Below are positions 32,179 to 38,719 of a stretch of DNA of 38,719 bases, piece by piece. The notes under the pieces were generated by a model. It made no database searches and was not told the DNA's origin. It worked only from the letters and a program-made list of their open reading frames with translations. The translations under genes were made by a program, and so were the position numbers. Within the stretch, counting starts at the first letter, position 1, and every line of letters begins with the position of its first letter. The DNA is from Kiritimatiellia bacterium (GTDB taxonomy: Bacteria > Verrucomicrobiota > Kiritimatiellia > PWTM01): NCBI GenBank assembly GCA_017996315.1, contig JAGOHE010000004.1:1-38719 (forward strand), given 5' to 3'.

Positions 32179-33594
32179 TCATGGATTTATGTTCTTTCGC
32201 AATTCGCGAATTCGGGCTTCGACGATCGGACGCCCATCCACCGCGCGCCCTCCCACCCGAAACACCAGGTTCGCGCCCGGACGACGGGAAGCCTGCAGCG
32301 CCCGCTCGTATAGGCGCACGGCGTCCTCCCAACGTCCGCCCCGCTCATGCCATTCGGCCCATCGCAGAGCGGCGGTGGCGATCACCGGCGCCGCTTCCGG
32401 GTCGTCGCGCGCCATCAGGGCGGCCCACGCCGGCTCCGGCGACCGGCCGTCCTCTTCCCTCCAAGCCCCCATGCGAAGTAGAAACGCGCCGCCGTCATCC
32501 ATGCGGCTCGCCAACGCGATGGCGCGCTCTATCTGGGCGTCCGCCTCAGCCTCCGCTTCGGGGTTCGTCCGCCACCGGAGCCACCCCTTCAGATACACAG
32601 CGGGCGCCGACTCCGAAGGGCCCAGCACGGTGTGCGCCAGATCGGGCCGCTGCATATCCACCAGCCTCCGAACCGCCTCGCGCGCGAGATCCGGCGGCCA
32701 GACCGTCACCAGTCCCGACGGCAGGTCGGCGGGCGCTTGTTCACCCAACTCCAGCCGTTCGATCATCCGCAGATAGAACAGCCAGGTGCGGGGCGTGATG
32801 CGATTGGAACGATCGCCGGCCAGCGCGCTCATCTGGCGGAGCACTTCGTCCTCCAGCCGGCCGCGCCGAACGGCCGAGTCGGCCGGTTCGAGCGGAAAAT
32901 GGTCGTTGCGTTCGAAGCCTTCCCGGGAAATGGCCAGCGCCTCCGGGTACCATTCCAGCGCGAGGGCGACTTCCGCCATGCGGTTCAGGGCGATGGAATC
33001 CGCGGGCGGATGCGCCGCATCCATGAGCAGGCTCTTCGCGCTCTCCGAGGGTTCGCCCCGGCGCGCCCAATCCGCCAACGCCGCCGCCACCTCCTGCGGG
33101 GGCCGTCGCGCGCACATACGGGCAAAGGCTTGCGCGGCGGTAACCGTCTGTCCCGGCGTTCGCCGCATTTCATGCATGACCCCCGCCAGCGGCGCTCCGA
33201 AGCGATCCGTCGCCTCATCCCACGCCTTCACCACCTCGGGGTCCCCGAACGATCCCATCAGGCGCGAGGCATCCTGCTTCGAAAAATCGGGAAGTATCCG
33301 CCACCGCGCCTCATCCCAGATTCGACCCAGGCGCGCGGAAATTTCAGGGTCCTTGGCGGCGTCCCATGCCCGCCGGATGCGCTCGCGGGCCGCGCCGGCA
33401 TGCCGCAGGATGTCCGCCTCGGCGGCCGCGCGCTGCGCCGGCTCATCGGCGCCCAGGGCTTCCATCCACCGGGCCCATTGCGCATCCGAAACCGCGCCAG
33501 CATCCGGCGCGACCTCCTCCGCGCGCGGTGCGTTCGGACCCATCCAGAGGATGACGCCGATCGCGGTCATTAGCTGAAAGACATGGATACGCAT
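32179..33594 (-). CDS. Secreted helical-repeat protein, unknown function
   Basis: A 471-residue exported protein (signal peptide about 1-25, ends APRA-EE). The body is helix-rich and Ala/Arg-rich with a HEAT-like start (RAAAEADILRHAGAARERIR) and TPR-like pairs further on (YPEALAISREGFERNDHFPL; WHERGGRWEDAVRLYERAL). Such repeats usually bind other proteins. No catalytic motif is seen. GAGG lies about 8 nt before the ATG. It follows the second secreted paralog after 52 nt and precedes the SPFH pair by 125 nt. A copy of its first codons and leader survives at 35214-35291, so it once took part in a local duplication. Confidence 0.72.
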   Translation of the reverse strand: MRIHVFQLMTAIGVILWMGPNAPRAEEVAPDAGAVSDAQWARWMEALGADEPAQRAAAEADILRHAGAARERIRRAWDAAKDPEISARLGRIWDEARWRILPDFSKQDASRLMGSFGDPEVVKAWDEATDRFGAPLAGVMHEMRRTPGQTVTAAQAFARMCARRPPQEVAAALADWARRGEPSESAKSLLMDAAHPPADSIALNRMAEVALALEWYPEALAISREGFERNDHFPLEPADSAVRRGRLEDEVLRQMSALAGDRSNRITPRTWLFYLRMIERLELGEQAPADLPSGLVTVWPPDLAREAVRRLVDMQRPDLAHTVLGPSESAPAVYLKGWLRWRTNPEAEAEADAQIERAIALASRMDDGGAFLLRMGAWREEDGRSPEPAWAALMARDDPEAAPVIATAALRWAEWHERGGRWEDAVRLYERALQASRRPGANLVFRVGGRAVDGRPIVEARIRELRKNINP

Positions 33595-33646
33595 CTGAAT
33601 ACCTCGTCACACGCGCCGCCGGGGAATTCCCGGATTCGGCGACGGG

Positions 33647-35125
33647 TCATCCTCCCCGGGTGATGTGGAGCATCATATCAGTCCCGGACTTGTCTTCTTG
33701 TTTTTCCTCCGGCTCACGCTGTCCGTACAGGTTCCATTCGGCCGAACGCACTCCGGAAAGAGGCAGTCGAATCGAGCCCGTGTTATCCGACGAGCCTTCA
33801 ACAACCTCTTCGGCCAGCCGTGCGCTGCCGAGCGTAATGATCGTGTCATCCCACAGCGCCAATCGCATGTCGTCCCGGTTCCGGCGCGCGCGCGCGTCAT
33901 TCTTTGCGAAGGTGATCAGATAGATGCGATCCACCGAAATCTCCTGCACGCCAAAGGAAGTCTCGACGCACGCGGTCTCCCCGGACAGCGCTTTCAGCGC
34001 GCCCGAGATATGATCGCCATCGTTCAGCGAGAGGGTTTCGGCCGTCCCGACCGCCGGAGCCTCTTTCCCGGAATCCGGCGTCCGGCCGTCCCACTCGCTC
34101 ACGCGGATATTTCGGACGATGATGGGCGGGCTACCCATGCAGCTGCAGAAGACGATCGCCTTGCCTTTTCCGTCAAAGCCCTGGAAATCCGTCCAGTCGG
34201 CCACCTGCGCGCCATTCACATAGACCAGGATCTTCTTCTGCTCCAAGTCCGTGAAGATGGAAAACCGCGCGGCATACTGATCGTTAATGCTTTCCAGCCC
34301 CTGCAGATTCGCTTGGCCGATCCGGCGATTGGCGGACATGGGGATGATGTGATAAAGAGTAATGCGGTTGTTGTCCTGGAGGGCGAACTCGTAGCAGTGA
34401 TTTGTCCCGACATGCGTGGTCGTCTGGTCGGAATAGAATGTGAACAGAAACGCACACTTGGCAAACCACTTCAACTCAAAATCAATGCGGGATTTCGGAG
34501 GCATCCGATCCAGTTGACGGCCGATAATGTCGTCGTTGAGGTGAATGTCTTCGTTGAAAATTCGGGGTGAGCCATGGGTGTTGGTCCATCCCTCCGGATT
34601 GCCCGGCCCCTCGAAGATCGTGCCCATGGCGCTGGTGTGCCTGGCGGACTGGATCAGCGCGCGAGCGATCTTCACGCGCCCCGAATACCAGGTGTCCAAC
34701 TCCAGGGTCTGGTCGTCCAACGCCACCATCTCGCCCCGCAACAGGTCCCCGTTGGTGAGCGTTACCGCCCAGTTCGACGCGGGGGTCTGCGCTCCGTTCT
34801 CCCGGCGCGACGCCTTGAACCGCCGGAGCCCGATCGTGGCGACATCCGCCGGTTCGCGCAAACTCTCATGCCGGAACGAAATCAACCCGGCCGAGGTGTC
34901 CATGCGTTCCCATGTGCCCGTCATCCGGTCGCCGTTGAGCAACTCGAGCACTCCGGCGCCGGCGGGGACGGCCGGCGCGGCGGGATCCTGTTGCGGCGAG
35001 GCCGGCGCATCCCCGGAGGCGGCCGGGCCCGGGGGATGGATCGCCGGAGGCGGGATGATTTCAATCGCCGCCCACGCGGCGGCGGCAAAGAGCAGGGCGA
35101 ATGCGGCGGTCAGTTTCATCCGCAT
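33647..35125 (-). CDS. Secreted lectin-like protein B (tandem paralog)
   Basis: A 492-residue exported protein, signal peptide about 1-20 (MRMKLTAAFALLFAAAAWA). A Pro/Ala linker leads to two short strand repeats of the form LLNGDRMTGTWERMD and LTNGDLLRGEMVALDDQTLE, then a concanavalin A/LamG-like core (GWTNTHGSPRIFNEDIHLND through KKILVYVNGAQVADW and NIRVSEWDGRTPD), and again LSLNDGDHISGALKALSGE. The first, second and last blocks share a NGD-x-(L/I)-x-G pattern common in planctomycete secreted proteins. GGAGGA lies about 8 nt before the ATG. It is very similar to the next gene upstream and is the downstream copy of a tandem duplication. Function unknown; binding is likelier than catalysis. 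Confidence 0.75.
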   Translation of the reverse strand: MRMKLTAAFALLFAAAAWAAIEIIPPPAIHPPGPAASGDAPASPQQDPAAPAVPAGAGVLELLNGDRMTGTWERMDTSAGLISFRHESLREPADVATIGLRRFKASRRENGAQTPASNWAVTLTNGDLLRGEMVALDDQTLELDTWYSGRVKIARALIQSARHTSAMGTIFEGPGNPEGWTNTHGSPRIFNEDIHLNDDIIGRQLDRMPPKSRIDFELKWFAKCAFLFTFYSDQTTTHVGTNHCYEFALQDNNRITLYHIIPMSANRRIGQANLQGLESINDQYAARFSIFTDLEQKKILVYVNGAQVADWTDFQGFDGKGKAIVFCSCMGSPPIIVRNIRVSEWDGRTPDSGKEAPAVGTAETLSLNDGDHISGALKALSGETACVETSFGVQEISVDRIYLITFAKNDARARRNRDDMRLALWDDTIITLGSARLAEEVVEGSSDNTGSIRLPLSGVRSAEWNLYGQREPEEKQEDKSGTDMMLHITRGG

Positions 35126-35154
35126 GTCGGGTGTCCTCCCGGCGCCCCACCGCG

Positions 35155-35291
35155 CATCCGCCCGAAGGGTTCTGGGCGGCGGCATGGCGGCCAGCCGGGG
35201 ATCGGTTCCATCGGCTGAAAGACATGAATGCGCATCGGAATATTTCGTCACACGCGCCGCCGGGGAATCCCCGGATACGGCGATGGATCAT
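35155..35291 (-). pseudogene. Duplication scar with relics of the two flanking genes
   Basis: The gap between the paralogs is mosaic. Positions 35214-35291 align without gaps to 33573-33650, the leader and first codons of the helical-repeat gene (MRIHVFQ); I count 9 differences in 78 bp, and the GAGG ribosome site is changed to GAAA. Positions 35176-35213 match 37553-37590 inside the squalene-cyclase-like gene with a 1-nt indel, and 35155-35182 match 36922-36949 near its 3' end with 2 differences in 28. The simplest reading is duplication of a block with both genes followed by deletion. Confidence 0.75.
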
Positions 35292-36760
35292 AGGGCGATG
35301 GGGAACATCACTTCAGGCCCGGCCTCTTCCTCTTGTTTGTCCTCCGGCTCGCGCCGCCCGTACAGGTTCCATTCGGCCGAACGCACTCCGGAGAGGGGCA
35401 GTCGCATCGAGCCCATGTTTTCCGACGAGCCTTCGAAACTCCCGTCGGCCAGCCGGGCGATGTCGAGCGTCACGATCGTGTCATCCCAAAGCGCCAACCG
35501 CATATCGCCCCGGTTCCGGCGCGCGCGCGCTTCATTCTTCGCGAAGGTGATCAGGTTGATGCGATCCACCGGAATCTCCAGCGCGCCAAAGGAGGTCTCG
35601 ACGCGCGCGGTTTCCCCGGACAGCGATTTCAGATCGCCCGAGAGCTGATCGCCATTGTTCAGCGACAGCGTTTCGGCCGTCCCGACCCCCGAAGCCTCTT
35701 TCCCGGAATCCGGCGTCCGGCCATCCCACTCGCTCACGCGGATGTTTCGTACGAGGAGCGGGTTCCCCTGGCTGCTGCAGAAGGCGATCGCCTTGCCTTT
35801 CCCGTCGAAGACCTGGGAATCCGTCCAATCGGCCACCTGCGCGCCATTCATATAGACCAGGATCTTCTTCTGTGCCACATCCGTGAAGATGGAAAATCGC
35901 GCGACATACTGCTGGCTTTCGTTTTCCAGCCCCTGCAGATTCGTCTGGCCGATCCGGCGCTGGCCGGAATTGGGGGTGACGCGGTTCAGTTCAATGCGGC
36001 TGTTGCCCTGGAGGCTGAACATGTAGCAGCCGTTCGCTCCGTCCTGCAGGGTCGGTTTGTCGGCATAAAATGCGACCAGGAAATAGCAGTAGGCGAACCA
36101 CCGCACCTCAAAATCAATGCGTGATTTCGGAGGCATTCGATCCAGTTCGCGGCCGACAATGGCGTTGTTGCCCAGATGAATGTCTTCGTTGGAAAAGCGG
36201 GGTTTGCCTTTGGTGTTGGTCCATCCCTCCGGATCGCCCGGCCCCTCGAAGATCGTACCCATGGCGCTGGTGTGCGCGGTGGACTGGACCAGCGCGCGAT
36301 CTATTTTCACGCGCCCCGAATACCAGGTGTCCAGCTCCAGGGTCTTGTCGTCCAACGCCACCACGTTGCCCCGCATCAGGTCCCCGTTGGTGAGCGTCAC
36401 GGCCCAGTTCGACGCGGGGGCCTGCGTTCCGGTCCCCCGGCGCGACGCCTTGAACCGCCGGAGCCCGATCGTGGCGACATCCGCGGGTTCGCGCAAACTC
36501 TCGTGCCGGAACGAAATCAATCCGGTCGAGGCGTCCATGCGTTCCCATGTGCCCGTCAGACGGTCGCCGTTGAGCAACTCGAGCACTCCGGCACCGGCGG
36601 GGCCGGCTGGAGCGGCGGGATCCTGTTCCGGCGAGGCCGGCGCTCCGCCGGAGGCGTCCGTGCCCGGCGGATTGGTCGCCGGAGACGGAATGATTTCAAT
36701 GGCCGCCCATGCGGCGGCGGTAAAGAACACGGCGAATACGGCAGTCATTTTCATACGCAT
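35288..36760 (-). CDS. Secreted lectin-like protein A (tandem paralog)
   Basis: A 490-residue paralog of the next gene downstream, with the same signal peptide (MRMKMTAVFAVFFTAAAWA), linker, NGD repeats, LamG-like core (WTNTKGKPRFSNEDIHLGNN; KKILVYMNGAQVADWTD; VRNIRVSEWDGRTPDSGKE) and acidic tail (EPEDKQEEEAGPE). Differences cluster in the central core, for example the segment FYADKPTLQDGANGCYMFS, so the two may bind different partners while keeping the outer scaffold. The start at 36760 has GGAGGAG about 8 nt upstream, the same arrangement as in the paralog. It starts 70 nt after the stop of the squalene-cyclase-like gene. The stop at 35288 lies within the duplicated scar. Confidence 0.75.
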   Translation of the reverse strand: MRMKMTAVFAVFFTAAAWAAIEIIPSPATNPPGTDASGGAPASPEQDPAAPAGPAGAGVLELLNGDRLTGTWERMDASTGLISFRHESLREPADVATIGLRRFKASRRGTGTQAPASNWAVTLTNGDLMRGNVVALDDKTLELDTWYSGRVKIDRALVQSTAHTSAMGTIFEGPGDPEGWTNTKGKPRFSNEDIHLGNNAIVGRELDRMPPKSRIDFEVRWFAYCYFLVAFYADKPTLQDGANGCYMFSLQGNSRIELNRVTPNSGQRRIGQTNLQGLENESQQYVARFSIFTDVAQKKILVYMNGAQVADWTDSQVFDGKGKAIAFCSSQGNPLLVRNIRVSEWDGRTPDSGKEASGVGTAETLSLNNGDQLSGDLKSLSGETARVETSFGALEIPVDRINLITFAKNEARARRNRGDMRLALWDDTIVTLDIARLADGSFEGSSENMGSMRLPLSGVRSAEWNLYGRREPEDKQEEEAGPEVMFPIAL

Positions 36761-36830
36761 GTCGGGTCTCCTCCCCGCGCTCCGGGGCGCGGTTATTACG
36801 GGCTCAACGGGCAAACATTCTCCTGGGCCA

Positions 36831-37856
36831 TCACCGTTCATAAATCGGCAGATAACGATAGTTCAGCGCCATGGAAAGCAGCGACGTGGCGGTGCAAAAG
36901 GTGGATCCGTTCGGACCATCCCATCCGCCCGAAGCGTTCTGGGTGGCGGACAGTCGGTCGGCGAGCTGGCGGTTCCACGTCCGCCAGGCATTCATGTCGG
37001 CGCGAAAATACGCCTGCGCGGCATAGTAGAGATAATAGAAATAATAGCTGTCCTGCGCGTTGTCGCCGGAGCGCTTGAGCCAGGCCCATGCGTCCCGGAA
37101 CAAACGGCTGTTTCGCTCGCGGGCCAGGGTGGCCACCACGACGGCAATCGCATTGCGCGGGGGCGAGCCTTCGCCGCGTTCGGTATATCCGATGCCGCCG
37201 TCGGGGTTCTGGCACTCGCGGTAGAACGCCAGCGCGCGCTCGATGGCCTCATCGGGAACTTCCAGCCCGGCGTTGCGCGCGGCGAACAACGCGACCACCT
37301 GCGCCCCGCTGACGGTGGTGTCGGCATCCGAGCTGCCCGGCGAATATCGCCACGCCCCGGGCCGGCTGTGTTTCTGGGCTTCGAGAATCAATCGGACGGC
37401 CCGGACGAGCGCGGGGCCCAGTCGCGGTTCATCCACCATCCCGTACAGCTCCGCCAGGGCCAGGGTCGCAAAACCGTGGTGATACATCGAGGGCCCGAAA
37501 TAGCCCTGGGCGTCCTGCATGCCGAGCAAGGCGTCCAGTCCGCGGCGGATGGCGGCGGCATGGCGGCCATATCGGGGATCGGTTCCTTCGGCGATCAGCG
37601 CCAGCAGCGACAAACCCTGGATGGCGGGGCCGTCCTCGCCGTCCTCGTTGCTCCACCGCCCGTTGGCCGCCTGCGCGCGGACGAGCCAATCCTGCCCGCG
37701 CTCGTACATGCGGACGATATCCTCCGGCACCTGCTCGCCGATATAGCCCGCCGGCATCCGGGTCATCGGCGCCTGGGCGCGGGCGGAAGTCATCCCGGCC
37801 GCCGCGACCGCCGCCACGATGATCGCGCGGCCGATACGGGTTCGAGTTCGACTCAT
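36831..37856 (-). CDS. Secreted squalene-cyclase-like alpha/alpha repeat protein
   Basis: A 341-residue exported protein (signal peptide 1-27, ends SARA-Q). Four or more alpha/alpha-toroid repeats carry Q-x2-x-G-(G/x)-W-like motifs: QAANGRWSNED, QDAQGYFGPS, QNPDGGIGYTERG and QNASGGWDGPNGS. This is the prenyltransferase/squalene-oxidase repeat. DADTT at 177-181 resembles the DxDD of squalene-hopene cyclase, but the full motif is missing and the chain is half the enzyme's length and secreted, so cyclase activity is unlikely. Such proteins are frequent in planctomycetes and verrucomicrobia with unknown role. Its ATG overlaps the stop of the upstream gene (ATGA). It shares relic sequence with the duplication scar at 35155-35213. 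Confidence 0.8.
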   Translation of the reverse strand: MSRTRTRIGRAIIVAAVAAAGMTSARAQAPMTRMPAGYIGEQVPEDIVRMYERGQDWLVRAQAANGRWSNEDGEDGPAIQGLSLLALIAEGTDPRYGRHAAAIRRGLDALLGMQDAQGYFGPSMYHHGFATLALAELYGMVDEPRLGPALVRAVRLILEAQKHSRPGAWRYSPGSSDADTTVSGAQVVALFAARNAGLEVPDEAIERALAFYRECQNPDGGIGYTERGEGSPPRNAIAVVVATLARERNSRLFRDAWAWLKRSGDNAQDSYYFYYLYYAAQAYFRADMNAWRTWNRQLADRLSATQNASGGWDGPNGSTFCTATSLLSMALNYRYLPIYER

Positions 37857-38719
37857 GGCTCCCCCTCCATCGCTTCATAATACCGCTGAATGGCATCCCG
37901 GTATTCGGCAGGCCATGTGGCCGGATCGCCCCCGGTCGCGCGGCCGCCCGTCGAGGAATCCTCGCTGCGTCCGCCTTCGCTGTCCGGCGTCCCGACGCCT
38001 CCGCCGGAATCGCGCGCGCCGCGGCCGCCCGTCGGGCCTGCGGTCTCCCCGGGCTGCGGATCGCCCGGTTCCTGCGACTCGGAAGGTTGCGCGGAGCTCG
38101 ATCCGCGCTGTCCTTGCATCATCCTCGCGATCGTCTCAATGATCTGGGTCTGCCCGCCCAACGCCGGCGCGCCCGTATCCGGGCGGTCCAGGTCGGAGGC
38201 CACCTCGTCGGACACATCGGCCAGCGAGCGCATCATCTGCGCCGCCTGCTCCATCCGGGTTTGATACGACATGGTGAACAGGGAACGCCCGATGTCCCGC
38301 TGCCGTTTCGACAACAATTTCACCGCGCCGGCGTACGTCTCCGAATCCCGGCCTTCGTCCGCGGCGCGGGTCTGCTCGCGCAGCATTTCCTCCTGCACCC
38401 GGGCCCGCATGAGCCCGAACAGGATGTCCGGCTCAAGCCCCTGCTGTTCTCCTCCTCCGCCGCCGCCATCGCCGCCCTGCGGGGGCGTCGCCGAGGATTC
38501 CAGCGCATCGGCCCACGCCTCAAACCGCGCCGCCAGCGCTTCAAGTTCAGTCGAGGCCATCATGAGCTGATTGGCGTCCATCCGGCGCAGCGCGACGTCA
38601 AACTGACCCAGTACGTCCGGCTCGCTCATTTCGAGCCGGATGCGCTCGTAAATTTCCTGCCGGGTACGCGTGTAGAACGCGCCGAGATCGTCGCGCACAT
38701 ATCCGGCCCCGCGCCGCGG
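37853..38719 (-). CDS. Coiled-coil protein, 3' part only
   Basis: The frame is open to the window edge with no start inside; 288 residues are visible (…GYVRDDLGAFYTR onward). The visible part is helix-rich with Met/Gln/Ala-rich segments (FTMSYQTRMEQAAQMMRSLA), a Gly/Gln-rich linker and a disordered Ser/Gly/Glu-rich C-terminal third. No membrane helix is seen in this part. It is coupled by ATGA to the squalene-cyclase-like gene. It resembles the tail of the large DUF4175-type coiled-coil proteins found beside MoxR/VWA gene sets in this group, but this is only a loose impression. Most of the gene lies to the right of the window. Confidence 0.6.
   Translation of the reverse strand, partial: PRRGAGYVRDDLGAFYTRTRQEIYERIRLEMSEPDVLGQFDVALRRMDANQLMMASTELEALAARFEAWADALESSATPPQGGDGGGGGGEQQGLEPDILFGLMRARVQEEMLREQTRAADEGRDSETYAGAVKLLSKRQRDIGRSLFTMSYQTRMEQAAQMMRSLADVSDEVASDLDRPDTGAPALGGQTQIIETIARMMQGQRGSSSAQPSESQEPGDPQPGETAGPTGGRGARDSGGGVGTPDSEGGRSEDSSTGGRATGGDPATWPAEYRDAIQRYYEAMEGEP

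Follow-up and report, generated by a model that had tools for sequence, protein, structure and literature searches.

A tandem duplication of a lectin-like gene in a Kiritimatiellia bacterium that left fragments of both neighbouring genes

Results

Gene order at the locus

The window analysed here is a stretch of 38,719 nt from a Kiritimatiellia bacterium, whose draft genome comprises 240 contigs and is 84% complete. All genes of the locus are on the minus strand, and in reading direction they encode a large conserved protein, an alpha/alpha-toroid protein (cyc), two lectin-fold paralogs (lec1 and lec2) that are separated by a short "scar", and a helical repeat protein (hel):

37853..38719, minus strand: C-terminal part of the large conserved protein, which precedes cyc in relatives; the gene is cut by the contig end
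36831..37856, minus strand: cyc, secreted alpha/alpha-toroid (squalene-hopene-cyclase C-terminal-like), intact copy, identified by a Pfam match and orthologues; source of both cyclase fragments in the scar
35288..36760, minus strand: lec1, secreted lectin-fold protein, the slower-evolving paralog with family-like residues
33647..35125, minus strand: lec2, the faster-evolving paralog, open over 492 codons
32179..33594, minus strand: hel, TPR-type helical repeat protein, intact copy, identified by Pfam TPR_12; an orthologue follows lec in relatives

The lec1 and lec2 repeats are adjacent and in direct orientation (33658-35125 versus 35293-36760, spacing 1632-1635), and their identity is 76-78% at the protein level and 86% at the DNA level. 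The genes cyc, lec1, lec2 and hel would share one presumed transcript, and the pair is apparently a member of an operon.

Predicted folds of the encoded proteins

The labels given in the initial annotation (cyclase-like, lectin-like, helical repeat) hold at the level of folds, i.e. a borderline Pfam match for cyc, strong fold matches for lec, and TPR repeats for hel. The match of cyc to SQHop_cyclase_C has 26.7 bits, with a cut-off of 26.1, and its orthologues in relatives are 50-62% identical. Squalene-hopene cyclases typically have two domains, about 630 residues, and a catalytic DxDD motif. Because cyc has a single domain of 341 residues, and the alignment shows D-x-D-(T/A)-T at positions 177-181 instead of DxDD, it is unlikely to be a squalene-hopene cyclase. 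The TPR_12 match of hel (E 2e-5) is below the cut-off.

Neither lec1 nor lec2 matches any Pfam family, and one relative has a weak match to 3keto-disac_hyd (E 0.03). The AlphaFold2 model of lec1 has a mean pLDDT of 81, with values mostly of 83-95 within the following domain:

35717..36271, minus strand: predicted jelly roll of lec1 of the L-type-lectin/CBM66 type, residues 164-348 (AlphaFold2 model; VIA-align Z 17-18)

In the model, this domain superposes on L-type lectins (ERGIC-53/LMAN1, VIP36) and on CBM66 with Z values of 17-18 and an rmsd of 2.5-2.8 Å. In contrast to these proteins, to which the sequence identity of lec1 is 6-14%, lec1 is predicted to have small beta-barrels on the flanks (residues 57-105, 119-163, 363-405, and 420-463). 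In the model, these are repeated four-strand units with a short helix and a strand, and they may be small barrels of the Sm/Hfq/SH3 type; Hfq_1 matches were obtained for just 2 of 22 members (E 2e-4). The term "lectin-like" applies to the predicted fold, and sugar binding is putative. Clostridial neurotoxin binding domains appeared among the Foldseek rows, but they have only the jelly roll in common, and no relation is implied.

Distribution of the gene family in relatives

The loci of relatives were found by a search with the cyc alignment; a search of the genome contigs with lec1 alone yielded no match. A comparison with relatives lacking the duplication, as suggested in the initial annotation, revealed a single-copy order in four genomes of the same family (G001, G003, G006, and G007), i.e. 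the large protein, cyc, one lec gene, an additional gene or a gap, and hel. A single lec gene after cyc is also present in Kiritimatiellae bacterium CSSed165cm_27R1 (L053), which groups as sister to the window pair in the tree (SH-aLRT support of 98). The nearest relative compared has 39% identity with lec1. The lec pair of the window is lineage-specific and young. The additional gene, which has no Pfam match and lies between the lectin-like and TPR genes in relatives (e.g. L031:5632-6438), is missing from the window.

We counted the lec copies at 80 cyc loci, taking fused or contig-end genes as found. One copy is present at 24 loci, two at 46, three at 6, four at 1, and none at 3, so that two to four copies follow cyc at 53 of the 80 loci, which belong to Verrucomicrobiota, Kiritimatiellota, and Lentisphaerota. 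In Verrucomicrobiae, the first and the second copies form separate clades in the tree, indicating old duplications in this group. At five Verrucomicrobiota loci (L078, L100, L101, L108, and L110), a single very long reading frame seems to have arisen by fusion of the lectin-like genes. A Lentisphaerae assembly contains another, independent young tandem pair of this family (L060:5336-9198), with 78% DNA identity and an excess of divergence in the core. In one relative, DUF58, BatA, and a further gene are located upstream of the slot (L082:41-7906), and the slot therefore seems to belong to an extended operon of the DUF58-BatA type in Verrucomicrobiota, Kiritimatiellota, and Lentisphaerota. A literature search retrieved no paper describing the role of this gene slot in these phyla.

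The scar between lec1 and lec2

Self-comparison with blastn revealed that the gap of 166 bp between the two lec genes (35126-35291) is tiled without remainder by four pieces, i.e. a lec leader, two cyc fragments (cyc'), and the hel leader with seven codons (hel'):

35214..35291, minus strand: piece 1, hel leader and first seven codons with a degraded ribosome-binding site; matches 33573-33650 at 69/78 positions (88%), E 3e-24
33573..33650, minus strand: source of piece 1, hel leader and codons 1-7
35175..35215, minus strand: piece 2, cyc fragment; matches 37551-37592 at 90% with one gap, E 1e-10
35155..35182, minus strand: piece 3, cyc fragment; matches 36922-36949 at 26/28 positions, E 8e-7
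35126..35155, minus strand: piece 4, lec leader with Shine-Dalgarno motif; matches 36761-36790 at 24/30 positions, E 0.017 over 23 bp
35214..35215, no strand: duplication junction hel'/cyc', a GC dinucleotide common to both matches, given by their overlap

None of 2000 shuffles reached the scores of the scar matches. The initial annotation had described the gap as the mutated leader and first codons of hel joined to two separated cyc fragments, and had predicted diagonals of 35155-35291 with 33573-33650, 36922-36949, and 37553-37590. All of these diagonals are present at nearly exact coordinates, and the tiling agrees with the description, to which the lec leader has to be added.

In minus-strand reading order, the arrangement is cyc - lec1 - hel' followed by cyc' - lec2 - hel. 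It contains a novel junction, at which the downstream end of the unit (hel') is joined to its upstream end (cyc'). Pieces 2 and 3 overlap by 8 bp, which are GC-rich (35175-35182). The ribosome-binding site of hel', originally GAGG, has degenerated to GAAA, whereas lec2 retains GGAGG. The hel leader directly follows lec1 in the scar, indicating that the interval with the additional gene of the relatives was already gone from the window lineage when the duplication happened.

The start codon of the hel' copy opens a chimeric frame of about 39 codons, which reads through hel' and then cyc' (window 35120-35235). The frame ends in a TGA that overlaps with the second start triplet of lec2 (ATGA), so that translational coupling would be possible judging from the sequence. 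A hairpin in the lec-hel leader was not clearly more stable than those of shuffled sequences (z -1.5 and -0.7).

Age and maintenance of the two copies

The distance between lec1 and lec2 at four-fold sites is 0.20, which corresponds to about 0.10 for each copy. A comparison of the scar with its sources, in which only one of the two sides is free to drift, revealed differences at 14 of 147 sites. This value is close to that for one free and one constrained copy, indicating that the scar and the bulk of the pair are of about equal age.

The end branches in the tree have lengths of 0.048 for lec1 and 0.24 for lec2. In a Tajima-type test with L053 as outgroup, 11 residue changes were assigned to lec1 and 30 to lec2 (p 0.004); other outgroups mostly gave the same direction, often non-significantly when taken singly. 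At the sites at which the paralogs differ, family members match lec1 in 622 and lec2 in 208 cases.

For the whole pair, counting yields an omega of 0.62 and a codon model one of 0.44, with omega=1 being rejected (p 1e-6). Neutral drift of equal size would have generated about four stops in lec2, and the probability of finding none is about 0.02. Because omega=1 is rejected and stops are absent, both copies are probably maintained. The possibility that lec2 is a pseudogene is thus not supported; it is open over 492 codons. The initial annotation had characterised the duplication as being caught "mid-decay", which is appropriate for the scar, with its degraded ribosome-binding site of hel', but not for lec1 and lec2, which are both open.

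A divergent patch in the core of the lectin-fold domain

As noted in the initial annotation, the differences between the paralogs cluster in the central core. In residues 181-300, 35% differ, compared to 17% outside (Fisher p 1.4e-4). The sharpest segment comprises codons 219-268, with 33% versus 12% of nucleotides differing, and none of 300 permutations was as extreme:

35957..36106, minus strand: lec1 patch, codons 219-268, inside the lectin-fold domain; excess divergence by permutations
34325..34474, minus strand: lec2 patch, codons 218-267; G+C 0.50 versus 0.63 in the rest of the gene

The divergence affects each of the three codon positions to about the same extent. The analysis of dN/dS along the core, which the initial annotation had proposed, yielded a dS of 0.84, a dN of 0.44, and an omega of 0.52 inside the patch, compared to 0.26, 0.10, and 0.41 outside. 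The dS values differ (p 0.008) and the omega values do not (p 0.62); the patch consists of 50 codons only and its limits were chosen after looking at the data, so that the silent-site p-values are generous. For residues 181-300, the silent-site test gave a p of 0.02, and silent differences in codons with identical amino acids alone were non-significant (p 0.16).

In orthologues, the situation is reversed. The core is more conserved than the rest in 155 close pairs, which are nearly all orthologous and non-independent, with a median ratio of 0.57 and no ratio of 2.04 or higher. Family-wide variability as a cause of the clustering was rejected on the basis of this median and of the core term, which has a p of 3e-4 with column entropy included. 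At equal divergence, tandem pairs tend to have higher core ratios than same-slot pairs, weakly so in the case of old pairs. The sole other young pair, L060, has a core ratio of 1.47, a higher dS in the core (p 0.046), and an omega that is not higher.

One explanation of the core differences would be positive selection on a ligand-binding surface, leading to a new specificity of lec2. The dN of the patch is very high, omega reaches 1.6 there if dS is forced to be equal, and the near-invariant Arg260 is replaced by His in lec2, in a region that is conserved in orthologues. However, dS is raised as well, and omega inside is not significantly different from that outside once dS is free. Furthermore, the differences have no preference for one strand face, and the hypothesis that they alternate along the beta-strands was dropped, as 10 of 16 are on the commoner face, with 10.7 expected. 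Positive selection is therefore considered unlikely. The joint rise of dS and dN, which leaves their ratio unchanged, argues for recombination or conversion instead, and suggests that the tract has a longer history than its surroundings.

Such a history would also result if the pair were old and gene conversion had homogenised everything but the core. Duplicated genes of bacteria are known to undergo gene conversion (PMC12046097), and the higher core dS of L060 at unelevated omega would fit. In contrast, the cyc fragments of the scar, which are outside of any long homology, differ from their source at only 5 of 70 sites, whereas about 21 differences would be expected if they were as old as the core (P 2e-6, or P 1e-9 for the complete set of scar pieces). 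This explanation thus appears quite improbable. With a young scar, homogenisation of the rest explains the patch poorly, and the replacement of the lec2 tract from a divergent copy fits. A comparison with 138 family members revealed no donor of the patch.

Origin of the duplication

It is well supported that lec1, lec2, and the scar represent a tandem duplication that included parts of both neighbours, and that the inner remnant decayed later. In the scenario that we propose, the ancestor would have had a single lectin-like gene, flanked by cyc and hel. Head-to-tail copying would have affected a segment of about 2.38 kb (now 35214-37592) that ended within codon 89 of cyc on one side and within codon 8 of hel on the other, with about 2 bp of common sequence at the join. 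The event would have had no cost, since the outer cyc and hel remained whole, and the inner copies would have been truncated from birth. The inner cyc remnant would then have lost 601 bp across an imperfect GC-rich repeat of up to 8 bp, of which the overlap of the two cyc pieces would be the mark. In a second deletion, of 131 bp, cyc' would have lost its end as far as 30 bp ahead of lec2, leaving a cyc' remnant of 61 bp. lec2 would have retained a ribosome-binding site of its own as well as its position within the presumed transcript, and was apparently maintained while evolving faster than lec1. Lastly, recombination with a lectin-like sequence of higher divergence, e.g. a third copy that was since lost, may have replaced a tract of about 50 codons in the lectin-fold domain of lec2. 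The pieces and their order, the lineage specificity, the unequal rates, and the patch itself are observed, whereas we infer the exact number and order of the deletions, the co-transcription, and the source of the patch. Taken as a whole, this series of a single duplication, trimming, retention of lec2, and replacement of the patch is considered likely.

The initial annotation favoured the duplication of a block of cyc, lec, and hel, followed by deletion of the inner hel and cyc. A complete block would have had nearly 5 kb, and the deletions would have happened to join hel codon 8 to cyc codon 89. The final gene order would be the same, and a larger unit deleted to the same endpoints would look identical. 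Spontaneous bacterial tandem duplications often exceed one gene in length, which would fit a block of this size. However, an extra large deletion, comprising about 1.4 kb from hel and part of cyc, is needed, and the scar is fully tiled without any more distal hel or cyc sequence. A complete block is thus a rather improbable starting point. From this earlier view, the tandem duplication with parts of both neighbours stands, as do deletions of inner sequence, i.e. those of 601 and 131 bp within the cyc remnant; copying and deletion of complete flanking genes is less economical, and no further deletion is demanded by the sequence. Chance similarity or an assembly artefact, for which the draft state of the genome could be quoted, can practically be dismissed, in view of E values down to 3e-24, the absence of matching scores in the shuffles, and 14% differing sites between the copies, too many for misassembled identical reads.

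Discussion

The mechanism of the duplication described here is ordinary. Like known short-junction tandem duplications of bacteria, it is head-to-tail, its ends are within flanking genes, the common sequence at the join is very short, the outer genes are preserved, and inner remnants were deleted later. In contrast to these, the copy in the window is fixed and 14% diverged, and the remnant is still readable. In one experimental system of bacterial tandem duplication, borders did not need microhomology and recA turned out to be non-essential (PMC11111574), and therefore a RecA-independent origin is plausible also in the present case, by analogy.

The unequal rates of lec1 and lec2 resemble those of young paralogs of C. 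elegans, of which one copy evolves at the ancestral rate and the other accelerates (PMC3637608). Differences are that the window pair is bacterial, apparently resides in one operon, and has its excess largely in one tract of 50 codons. Gene family and slot are the same as in the other tandem lec arrays after cyc in Verrucomicrobiota, Kiritimatiellota, and Lentisphaerota; those are mostly ancient, whereas the window pair is young and lineage-specific.

The locus thus provides an unusually complete natural record, from an uncultured lineage, of a small bacterial tandem duplication with almost no common end sequence that was subsequently trimmed. The fragments of neighbouring genes in the scar allow a reconstruction of the event with nearly base-level precision. 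It is conceivable, albeit doubtful, that the tandem paralogs of the slot evolve as modules, with outer barrels that are kept alike by descent or conversion and a central lectin-fold tract that is swapped between divergent copies. If this were true, every duplication would soon yield a protein with a different binding domain. The reversed conservation of the core in the two youngest tandem pairs of our comparison offers a testable case of how a widespread, unstudied gene slot diversifies its lectin-like proteins.
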